Of a stretch of DNA of 64,000 nucleotides, positions 43,023 to 54,966 are shown one piece after another. The notes beneath the pieces were generated by a model. The model searched no databases, was not told the DNA's origin, and saw only the letters and a list, made by a program, of their open reading frames with translations. Each line of letters begins with the position of its first letter. Positions within the stretch are counted from its first letter, which is position 1. Location of the stretch: NCBI RefSeq assembly GCF_003030345.1, contig NZ_CP028158.1, forward strand, positions 5,146,001 to 5,210,000, read 5' to 3'. This DNA is from Plantactinospora sp. BC1. Its GTDB lineage: Bacteria; Actinomycetota; Actinomycetes; Mycobacteriales; Micromonosporaceae. The position numbers and the translations under genes were made by a program.

Positions 43023-43242
43023 CGTGCCTCCTCCCGACGTACCGGTGGGCCGGGCTAGCTCTTCCCGGCCCTCGCAGACACAAACCGGGCCGGGCTCGGG
43101 GGGCCCGGCCGGTACGCCGAGCGCCCGCGCACGCCGGCCGGCGCCCACCTGAGCAGTTCCGACCCCCGGTGACATCCCGCACAAACGGGGCTGCCGGCGC
43201 TCTAGATCGTTATCCTTGGGGTGACGCCGCACCGCGGCGATC

Positions 43243-43288
43243 CCGGACGAGTTGCGCGTCGTACCCGGCCTGCCAAGACGACCGCCAT
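43243..43288 (+). promoter_or_regulatory. Guanidine-III riboswitch (ykkC-III)
   Basis: CCGGACGAG (43243-43251) starts a short P1 stem CCGG (43243-43246) with CCGG (43265-43268). The loop strand GCGCGTCGT (43254-43262) pairs with ACGACCGC (43278-43285) to form the characteristic pseudoknot, with one bulged C. The layout and the sequence closely follow the Thermobifida fusca guanidine-III riboswitch as I recall it. The pseudoknot ends 5 nt before GAGGTGA, so guanidine binding would control access to the ribosome binding site. The downstream gene is a guanidinium exporter. Confidence 0.88.
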
Positions 43289-43303
43289 CGAGGTGAGTTC
43301 GTC

Positions 43304-43618
43304 TTGGCCTGGATCGTGTTGATCATCTCTGGAATGCTGGAAACGGTCTGGGCGATCGCGCTGGAGCGCAGCGCCGGCTTCAGCCGTCCGCTCCCCACCG
43401 GCATCTTCGCCGCCGCCCTCGTGCTGAGCATGGTCGGCCTCGGCTACGCGCTGCGCAGCATTCCGGTCGGCACCGGCTACGTGGTCTGGGTGGGCATCGG
43501 CGCCGTCGGCACCGCGCTGGTCGGCATGATCGCGCTCGGCGAGTCGGCGAGCCTGCCCCGGCTGCTCTGCCTACTGCTCGTCGTGGCCGGCGTGGTGGGG
43601 CTGAAGGTCTTCCACTGA
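43304..43618 (+). CDS. gdx: Guanidinium exporter Gdx (SugE-type SMR protein)
   Basis: The 104-residue protein is a four-helix small multidrug resistance transporter with the Gdx/SugE pattern: AWIVLIISGMLETVWAIALE carrying the essential Glu, SMVGLGYALRSIPVGTGYVVW and GMIALGESASLPRL. It would export guanidinium in exchange for protons as a dual-topology dimer. The start is the TTG at 43304, 7 nt after GAGGTGA, because family proteins begin MAWIVL and no ATG or GTG fits. Expression is predicted to be switched on by guanidine through the riboswitch upstream. Confidence 0.93.
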   Translation: MAWIVLIISGMLETVWAIALERSAGFSRPLPTGIFAAALVLSMVGLGYALRSIPVGTGYVVWVGIGAVGTALVGMIALGESASLPRLLCLLLVVAGVVGLKVFH

Positions 43619-52477: not shown

Positions 52478-52852
52478 ATGATCGAGGGCACCGGTCTGAC
52501 CGTGACCACCGTCAACCTGAGCGCACCGGATCCGAGGGCTCTGGCCCGTTTCTACCAGCGCCTCCTCGGCTGGGAGATCACCGAGGAGGCGCCGGACTGG
52601 GTGCTGATGCGTGACCCGGCCGGGGGAGTGGGGCTGGCCTTCCAGACCGAGGCGGCGTACCGCCGGCCGAGCTGGCCGGCCCGTCCCGGCGACCAGCAGA
52701 TGATGATGCACCTGGAGATCCGGGTCGACGACCTGGAACGCGCCGCCGCACACGCCGTGGCCTGTGGCGCCACCCGGGCCGACTTCCAGCCCCAGGAGGA
52801 CGTCCTCGTGCACCTCGACCCGGCCGGCCACCCCTTCTGCCTCTACCTCTGA
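52478..52852 (+). CDS. Small VOC-superfamily (glyoxalase/bleomycin-resistance-like) protein
   Basis: The 124-residue protein is a two-module VOC protein: TTVNLSAPDPRALARFYQRLLG, then MMMHLEIRVDDLERAAAHA and a final HLDPAGHPFCLYL. The ATG follows CGGAGG. Function may be small-molecule sequestration or a metal-dependent reaction. Its stop is 3 bp from the large inverted repeat beside the truncated rRNA gene. Confidence 0.88.
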   Translation: MIEGTGLTVTTVNLSAPDPRALARFYQRLLGWEITEEAPDWVLMRDPAGGVGLAFQTEAAYRRPSWPARPGDQQMMMHLEIRVDDLERAAAHAVACGATRADFQPQEDVLVHLDPAGHPFCLYL

Positions 52853-52854
52853 CA

Positions 52855-52965
52855 GTGAGGATGTAGGAGCGGGTCACCCGGCCGGTCTGACTCAGCCTCT
52901 GACTGACCTTGGGTGTCTTCTAGGGGATTCGTCGGTCTGCCCGGGTGACCCGTTCCTGCACTCAC
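52855..52965. repeat. Large imperfect inverted repeat beside the 16S fragment
   Basis: The left arm (52855-52881) and the right arm (52941-52965) match over 23 of 25 aligned positions with one 2-nt gap. Both mismatches become G-U pairs in RNA read on one strand. Each arm includes CGGGTCACCCGG. The loop of about 60 nt contains a weaker hairpin. It is probably a transcription terminator shared by the VOC gene and the rRNA unit, or the scar of a larger deletion. Confidence 0.65.
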
Positions 52966-52975
52966 CGACCGGGCG

Positions 52976-53066
52976 CGAGTACCCCGAAGGGCCTTTCCGC
53001 TCGACTTGCATGTGTTAAGCACGCCGCCAGCGTTCGTCCTGAGCCAGGATCAAACTCTCCAACAAA
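52976..53066 (-). rRNA. 16S rRNA 5' fragment (truncated gene)
   Basis: Read on the minus strand, the sequence is the conserved 16S start, AGAGTTTGATCCTGGCTCAG, followed by GCTTAACACATGCAAGTCGA and GAAAGGCCCTTCGGGGTACT as in Micromonosporaceae. Similarity ends at 52976 after about 90 nt, where unrelated sequence leads into an inverted repeat. The rest of 16S, 23S and 5S are absent. The exact mature 5' end is estimated. Confidence 0.9.
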
Positions 53067-53147
53067 AACCATCGAAAAATTTGCAACCCGGCAACAATAA
53101 AAACACTTGCTGCCAAACAAACAAACCATTTGGCACTGGCTTATCAA

Positions 53148-53172
53148 GCACCCTGTTGAGTTCTCAAAGAAC
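53148..53172 (-). promoter_or_regulatory. rRNA leader boxA-like antitermination element
   Basis: On the minus strand TTCTTTGAGAACTCAACAGG is the conserved leader block seen before actinobacterial 16S genes. The AT-rich leader between it and the 16S start (53067-53147) looks normal for an rRNA operon. Confidence 0.75.
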
Positions 53173-53253
53173 AACCACACACCAGACAACCAGCCACAAA
53201 GACCAGCCACCCGGGGCTATCCGCACCCGCCGTTTCCGCCAGGCACTCGTAAT

Positions 53254-53282
53254 ACGTTAGCTGACCGCTTTCGCACCGTCAA
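53254..53282 (-). promoter_or_regulatory. rRNA promoter, proximal
   Basis: TTGACG (53282-53277) and TAACGT (53259-53254) are 17 bp apart on the minus strand, near the sigma-70 optimum. Confidence 0.75.
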
Positions 53283-53435
53283 ACCGAATGAATTCGGTTC
53301 GACAACCGCTTCATGTCGATCTAGCTGTCCCTCGATCAGGGCACGAACCTCTCGGCTGTGCTGATCGAGGAGTCCGGCAGTCCGGCCGCTCGCGGAGTCA
53401 CCCACACGCTCGCCCGGCTCACTGCCCGATCGTTC

Positions 53436-53464
53436 ACTCTACCCGGTCAGGTCCGCAACTCCAA
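53436..53464 (-). promoter_or_regulatory. rRNA promoter, middle
   Basis: TTGGAG (53464-53459) and TAGAGT (53441-53436) are 17 bp apart on the minus strand. Tandem promoters are usual for rRNA operons. Confidence 0.5.
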
Positions 53465-53500
53465 ATCGCCCGTTCCGGCGCATCGGTGTCGCCCCGCCCG

Positions 53501-53537
53501 CCAGGTCGTCGGGGTGGTGAACCACCCGCTGACCTGG
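53501..53537 (-). terminator. tyrS terminator or leader hairpin
   Basis: CCAGGTC (53501-53507) pairs with GACCTGG (53531-53537), and inside it GGGTGG pairs with CCACCC around a TGAA tetraloop. It is downstream of tyrS and between two rRNA promoters. Confidence 0.5.
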
Positions 53538-53608
53538 TCTCACACCCCCCGGGTCCGGCCTGCTGCGCGTTTCGCGCCGTTCGTCCGTTCCCCCGGTGGG
53601 CAGAGAGA

Positions 53609-53638
53609 AAATTACGCGTCTGGAGGGTGCAACGTCAA
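53609..53638 (-). promoter_or_regulatory. rRNA promoter, distal
   Basis: TTGACG (53638-53633) and TAATTT (53614-53609) are 18 bp apart on the minus strand, 27 bp after the tyrS stop. Confidence 0.65.
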
Positions 53639-53664
53639 ATCCGCGGAGGGCATTCCCGGTCACA

Positions 53665-54966
53665 TCATCGACCGGACACCAACTCCACCCCGGCGAAGGT
53701 CCGCTTGCCCCGGCGCAGCACCAGGAAGCGGCCGTGCAGCAGCGCCTCCGCCGGCACCGTGGCCTCGACGTCGGTCACCCGCTCGTTGTTGACGTAGGCG
53801 CCGCCCTCGGTGATCGCCCGCCGGGCCTCGTTGAGGCTGCCCACCAGTCCCGTCTCGCGGAGCAGCACCGCCACCGACGGCAGACTCTGCACCGCTACCA
53901 GGCCGGTCTCGGCCAGCGCCGCCCGGAGGGTCTCGGCGGAAAGCTCGTCAAGGGTACCCCGGCCGAAGAGCGCCTGGCTGGCCGCGACCGCCTGCCGGGC
54001 CTCCTCGGCCCCGTGCACCAACGCGGTCAGCTCCTCGGCGAGCGCCCGCTGGGCGACCCGGGCCGCCGGCCGCTCCGCCGTCGCCTTCTCCAACTCCTCG
54101 ATCTCGGAATGCGAGCGGAAGCTGAAGTACCGGAGGTACTGCGCCACGTCCCGGTCGTCGGTGTTGACCCAGAACTGGTAGAAGGCGTACGGGCTGGTCA
54201 TCGTCGGGTCGAGCCAGATCGCCCCGCCCTCGGTCTTGCCGAACTTCGTACCGTCGGCCTTGGTGACCAGCGGGGTGACGAAGGCGTGCACCGGCCCGGC
54301 ACCACGGCGCCGCACGTAGTCGACACCCGCGGTGATGTTGCCCCACTGGTCGGAACCGCCGAACTGCAACGTGCAGCCGTACCGCCGGTGCAGCTCGAAG
54401 AAGTCGTTGGCCTGGAGGAGCTGGTAGCTGAACTCGGTGTAGCTGATCCCGCTCTCCAGCCGGGCCTTGACCACCTCGCGGGCCAGCATCCGGTTGATCG
54501 GGAAGTGCTTGCCGACGTCACGGAGGAACTCCGCCACCGACATCTCGCCGGTCCAGTCCAGGTTGTTGACCGGATGGGCGGCGTTGTCGCCCACGTACGA
54601 CATGAAGGGCGCGAGCTGCCTGCGGATCCGCTCCACCCAGCTCGCCACCACCTCCGGGCTGTTCAGCGTCCGCTCGCCCCGCTCGTTGGGGTCGCCGATC
54701 AGGCCGGTCGCCCCGCCGACCAGCAGCAGCGGGCGGTGCCCGGCGAGTTGCAGCCGGCGGGCCGTCAGCACCTGCAACAGGTTGCCGATGTGCAGGCTCG
54801 GCGCCGTGGGGTCGAACCCGACATAGAACGTCACCGGAGCGGAGCCGAAGTGCTCCGCCAGCTCGGCGGGATCGGTCGAGTCGAAGAGGAGTCCCCGCCA
54901 CCGCAGGTCGTCGAGCGGAGACTCCCAGCCGGCAGGCGCGGCGGGGGGAAGGCTGCTATCGGTCAC
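53665..54966 (-). CDS. tyrS: Tyrosyl-tRNA synthetase
   Basis: The 433-residue class I synthetase charges tRNA-Tyr. It has the HIGH-like motif PSLHIGN with His59, the tyrosine/ATP pocket segment QFGGSDQWGNI, the KMSKS-like GTKFGKTEGG and a C-terminal S4 RNA-binding domain (LVGSLNEARRAITEGGAYVN). The GTG at 54966 fits family length; a weak -10-like GACAAT lies 7 nt upstream and no ribosome binding site is seen, so the mRNA may be leaderless. A tyrS gene directly upstream of an rRNA operon is the ancestral order in related actinobacteria, as I recall it. Confidence 0.97.
   Translation of the reverse strand: MTDSSLPPAAPAGWESPLDDLRWRGLLFDSTDPAELAEHFGSAPVTFYVGFDPTAPSLHIGNLLQVLTARRLQLAGHRPLLLVGGATGLIGDPNERGERTLNSPEVVASWVERIRRQLAPFMSYVGDNAAHPVNNLDWTGEMSVAEFLRDVGKHFPINRMLAREVVKARLESGISYTEFSYQLLQANDFFELHRRYGCTLQFGGSDQWGNITAGVDYVRRRGAGPVHAFVTPLVTKADGTKFGKTEGGAIWLDPTMTSPYAFYQFWVNTDDRDVAQYLRYFSFRSHSEIEELEKATAERPAARVAQRALAEELTALVHGAEEARQAVAASQALFGRGTLDELSAETLRAALAETGLVAVQSLPSVAVLLRETGLVGSLNEARRAITEGGAYVNNERVTDVEATVPAEALLHGRFLVLRRGKRTFAGVELVSGR

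Follow-up and report, generated by a model that had tools for sequence, protein, structure and literature searches.

The tyrS locus and the 16S piece

Lying on the minus strand of the window, the 64,000-nucleotide stretch of Plantactinospora sp. BC1 DNA that was analysed as a whole, is tyrS (53665–54927), which encodes tyrosyl-tRNA synthetase; its reading frame ends at 53665, and the upper coordinate, 54927, simply marks where the query sequence used for the tyrS search begins. Downstream of the gene is what looks like the true upstream region of an rRNA operon (53103–53660, minus strand). Motif searches on this strand identified three promoter-like hexamer pairs, TTGACG-18-TAATTT (53638–53609), TTTGGA-18-TAGAGT (53465–53436) and TTGACG-17-TAACGT (53282–53254); the combination TTGCGG/TAGAGT, tried first at the site of the second pair, gave no match at spacings of 15–19. 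The pairs are followed by the rRNA leader motif GTTCTTTGAGAACTCAACAG (53172–53153, minus) and by the 16S start motif GAGAGTTTGATCCTGGCTCAG (53059–53039, minus). The last base in common with other 16S copies is 52976, leaving a 16S piece of about 90 nt. A first-pass annotation of the locus had described tyrS, the three promoter pairs, the leader and a 16S of about 90 nt that ends at 52976 with no 23S or 5S behind it, and all of this is confirmed in the letters.

At the Rfam gathering thresholds no rRNA was detected in the window, and none was detected between 52000 and 54500 at E ≤ 1, where the 90-nt 16S piece itself received no score. Weak Rfam matches to mir-341 and snoU82P near the site score well short of the respective gathering cut-offs and were disregarded. 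Elsewhere in the window, Rfam reports a Guanidine-III riboswitch (43220–43288, plus strand; 48.4 bits), located at the beginning of a reading frame (43169–43618, plus strand) for a putative membrane protein of the small multidrug-resistance type; such a pairing is known.

The record containing the window (G000) was compared with six other genomes of the same genus (G001–G006). In an alignment read by eye, promoter blocks 2 and 3 are present in all five aligned relatives and block 1 in four, being absent from G005; the leader motif is reached in this alignment only in G001 and G004, as the contigs of G002, G003 and G005 end earlier. The counterpart of the region in G004 leads into an intact operon. 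The promoter blocks are conserved at the aligned same-genus tyrS loci, and promoters and leader are most likely ordinary components of an ordinary operon.

The joint at 52975|52976

Abutting the 16S piece is the left end of an IS110-family element (52849–52975, plus strand), which is neither spacer nor 16S. It follows a glyoxalase-like (VOC) gene (52478–52852, plus strand; Pfam Glyoxalase_6, E = 1.3e-23), the final gene of the left contig. The last codons of this gene have been replaced by the IS110-family end, and its stop is supplied by the CTGACAG of the element; in all four relatives examined (L132, L134, L136 and L140) the gene has one extra residue before TGA. In the window the element end falls on the final codon of the gene.

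Both sides of the joint are exact repeats of sequence elsewhere in the record. The 127 bp to the left are identical to G000:8284846–8284972, one end of a collapsed IS contig, and the 127 bp to the right (52976–53102, minus strand), which comprise the end of the leader and the first ~90 nt of 16S, are identical to G000:8281729–8281855, where a collapsed 16S contig starts. In an exact-repeat comparison the two 127-bp overlaps stand back to back, with no Ns between them. Homology to G004 jumps at the same point, from about 4.61 Mb (plus) on one side to 5.276 Mb (minus) on the other; the G004 orthologue of the glyoxalase-like gene (4613438–4613800) is about 660 kb from tyrS. For about 50.8–52.4 kb of the window, left of the joint, G004 matches best in a third region, at 7593 kb, which shows that the two species differ in gene order irrespective of the joint. 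Judged on sequence only, with the joint lying between contig-end overlaps and its sides drawn from different places in G004, the truncated 16S structure was not borne out as a real genomic feature. What stops at 52976 is, as we read this artificial joint, a contig of the record and not a 16S gene.

Overlaps of constant length

De Bruijn contigs can leave a constant overlap equal to k at repeats. SPAdes is among the assemblers that can do so, and its top k is 127.

Repeats were counted in 179,841 bases from 15 sequences (the window, L013, L014 and L017–L028), which were chosen for carrying such repeats. Left aside were the poly-C and simple-repeat tail of the record (865 bases), L001–L012, L015 and L016 (largely repeating stretches already included), L029–L036, and the tyrS loci L037–L116 and relatives' loci L117–L142, mostly from other genomes. 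The sample is thus non-random, and its repeat pairs depend on one another, many of them arising from the ten IS ends. It contains 179 maximal exact repeat pairs with a length of 40 bp or more. Of these, 89 exceed 56 bp and 86 reach 127 bp or more, with 81 of the 86 falling within 127–134 bp and 42 measuring exactly 127. A list of repeat runs made without the last 865 bases contains 50 runs, 41 of them of 127–135 bp, 127 being the floor by construction; when those bases were included in the overlap comparison, most pairs came from them. Abutting overlaps recur at further joints of the record, for example at 4211919|4211920, 6895569|6895570, 8251631|8251632, 8260260|8260261 and 8268054|8268055. 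For comparison, the exact repeats common to the three G004 operons, which served as a control, measure 5308–5356 bp, not 127. A constant overlap, matching a presumed k of 127, is what the ends of repeat contigs carry in this record.

The IS110-family element

The collapsed IS contig continues past the first 127 bp into a transposase (DEDD_Tnp_IS110, PF01548, E = 3.5e-25; Transposase_20, PF02371, E = 3.1e-17), and the DEDD transposase in the full element places it in the IS110 family. The element spans G000 8284846–8286160. Its end is present in ten copies in the record, the tenth being the collapsed IS contig itself; the other nine have unique flanks, and the bases directly before CTGACAG are CCT in seven of these nine and CCC in two. 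Target choice by the element looks specific. By eye, the end folds back upon itself; a guide RNA is known for IS110. At two further places in the record, 5757088|5757089 and 6498221|6498222, both ends of the element meet with the body missing, so that the order of contigs there may be correct, the element alone having been lost.

Ten identical copies beside broken repeats could suggest a natural, dispersed 127-bp hairpin element that disrupts rRNA genes and other repeats. We give this almost no weight: the 127 bp are the terminus of a longer IS110-family contig, whose continuation past them refutes the idea, and the unrelated rRNA overlap is also 127 bp long; a 47-base piece of the sequence, moreover, has no exact match in genome_contigs, where near records may be missing. 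An artificial linker was also considered for the ten-copy sequence beside the 16S piece, and was rejected given that the rRNA overlap is likewise exactly 127 bp and that the sequence is an IS110-family end.

rRNA genes across the record

The record is a single contig of 8,333,965 bases, rated 100% complete. It has one near-full 16S (8281766–8283267, plus strand) and two 3′ fragments, one 23S (8276735–8279845, minus strand) and four 5S genes. The near-full 16S is chimeric: 16S sequence stops at 8283188 and other sequence follows, and it is the two fragments that have the normal 3′ end. It scores 1458 bits; the nine full-length 16S genes listed for the genus's other genomes reach 1547–1582 bits. 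As the near-full copy is chimeric and the other copies are fragments, the record read literally has no intact 16S gene.

Besides the entry in the window there are two sibling operon entries, matching at 8251321–8251631 and 6895570–6895777, which end at the very 16S base where the window entry ends. Both run into one identical other sequence, putatively transposase-like, again with a 127-bp overlap to a leftover contig. Counting the rrn operons, a check that the first-pass annotation had put forward, thus gives three entries and no intact operon in the record.

Another reading is that a real IS110-linked deletion took away the bulk of the rRNA operon, leaving behind a strong promoter from which a short RNA with the 16S 5′ end is made. 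A genuine IS110-family end does adjoin the 16S piece, the promoter blocks upstream are conserved, and an IS-linked loss with its end point within 16S is conceivable. We nevertheless reject the deletion, and hold it to be very improbable, because all three operons share one cut point in 16S, yet what follows it is not the same sequence throughout. It is further opposed by the exact 127-bp overlap on each side of the joint, by the occurrence of the same IS end beside a 5S end and beside the interiors of other repeats elsewhere in the record, and by the literal lack of an intact 16S, which a living cell cannot do without.

The separated pieces can be chained by their ends. In operon order, the 16S contig overlaps two internal transcribed spacer (ITS) contigs by 128 bp each, these overlap the 23S contig by 127 bp each, and the 5S end overlaps three exits, at about 7266.6, 8146.6 and 8268.1 kb. 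With three entries and as many exits, the record is consistent with three operons, the number in G004. These multi-copy operons have collapsed to a single set, which consists of one 16S contig, two ITS contigs and one 23S–5S contig and is reached by the three entries and left by three further 5S exits. The 16S and the 23S lie apart and on opposite strands, with no operon in the record, which could be taken to mean that 16S and 23S are genuinely unlinked in the organism and that the tyrS operon is a relic. With 16S, ITS and 23S pieces overlapping by 127–128 bp in operon order, and with the operon linked in G004 of the same genus, the probability of this seems to us vanishingly small.

Comparison with relatives

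Orthologues of tyrS, 87–95% identical, were found in five of the six other genomes of the genus, G006 giving no match at the cut-off; the closest named match is from Plantactinospora alkalitolerans (89%). G004, a single contig, has three 16S genes. Its tyrS (5274230–5275486) is followed, after about 600 bp, by an intact 16S–23S–5S operon, and it is alone among the six in having the whole tyrS–rRNA operon arrangement. In G001, G002, G003 and G005 the tyrS contig stops before or at the 16S start; G002 had no 16S match at the cut-off. Among the first 21 of 80 tyrS loci, 19 end 241–847 bp past tyrS and five have the 16S start motif, and the two from Glycomyces run on for 10 kb without that motif.

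The three entries of G000 match the upstream flanks of the three G004 operons one to one. The window entry corresponds to the flank of the tyrS operon (84% over 2085 bp), that in L017 to the flank of the second operon (81% over 416 bp) and that in L018 to the flank of the first (79% over 1376 bp). At the other end, the G004 flank past the 5S of the tyrS operon matches G000:8268186–8271213, behind a 5S at 8268060–8268176, so that the likely true continuation of the operon is present in the record, far from the window. The exit at 7266 kb (L013) has no G004 partner, in a comparison that ran without the post-5S flank of the first G004 operon.

The end of the record

The last ~80 kb of the record (G000:C1:8251505–8333965) has the appearance of leftover contigs, comprising collapsed IS and rRNA sequences, adapter-like pieces and a poly-C end. 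An approximate query for the Nextera mosaic end gave 15 matches with up to three mismatches, compared with none for the reversed control; 14 of the 15 lie at 8279966–8329595, in the last 55 kb, and the other at 6010661. Poly-C runs and short simple-repeat pieces make up the very end. Library debris has thus been retained in the record, and findings in its last ~80 kb, as at its other joints, are to be distrusted.

Probable origin of the 16S cut

On the sequence evidence it is virtually certain that the 16S cut at 52976 is an assembly artefact, produced where short-read contigs were concatenated within a collapsed rRNA operon; the organism most likely has no truncated rRNA gene. The overlaps point to short reads assembled by the de Bruijn method with a final k of 127. 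The three rRNA operons would then have collapsed into common contigs, one for 16S, two for the ITS variants and one for 23S–5S, and each unique flanking contig would have extended about 127 bp into the common sequence before stopping. It is this run of a flanking contig into collapsed sequence that would account for the "~90 nt of 16S". The contigs would finally have been ordered and joined without Ns into one pseudo-molecule of 8.33 Mb, with the tyrS contig butted against one that ends in an IS110-family left end. Most likely, tyrS in the organism leads into a normal 16S–23S–5S operon and then into the sequence from about G000:8268177 onward, a path suggested by the comparison with G004.

The first-pass annotation had offered two alternatives. 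Its assembly collapse is strongly supported by the 127-bp overlaps, the three cuts at the same base, the debris and the intact operon of G004; its deletion with a live short RNA is not supported. We also regard as very improbable the related idea that the junction is real in part of the population at least, with an IS110-linked rearrangement placing a functional rRNA promoter so that it might make a short RNA carrying the 16S 5′ domain.

A one-contig record rated 100% complete can therefore be a concatenation of short-read contigs. At the joints of such records, gene order, truncated genes and 'solo' rRNA promoters are not to be interpreted, and back-to-back exact repeats of one constant length provide a simple test for them. 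PMC5968735 gives the records of Plantactinospora sp. BB1 and BC1, of the same genus, as CP028158/CP028159.

Relation to known systems

The left contig finishes in the end of an element of the IS110 family; only 127 bp of it are present at this site in the record, the remainder having been collapsed elsewhere. The artefact, as we interpret it, is of a known sort and leaves nothing biologically unusual to explain. That rDNA collapses in short-read assemblies is a familiar problem, which riboSeed addresses; its authors suspect that such repeats have been collapsed in several reference genomes (PMC6009695). The present case resembles the problem as set out there, with multi-copy rDNA collapsed and contigs stopping within or next to it (PMC6009695). 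It differs from that description in that contig ends have also been joined here without Ns, giving a record that resembles a finished chromosome.
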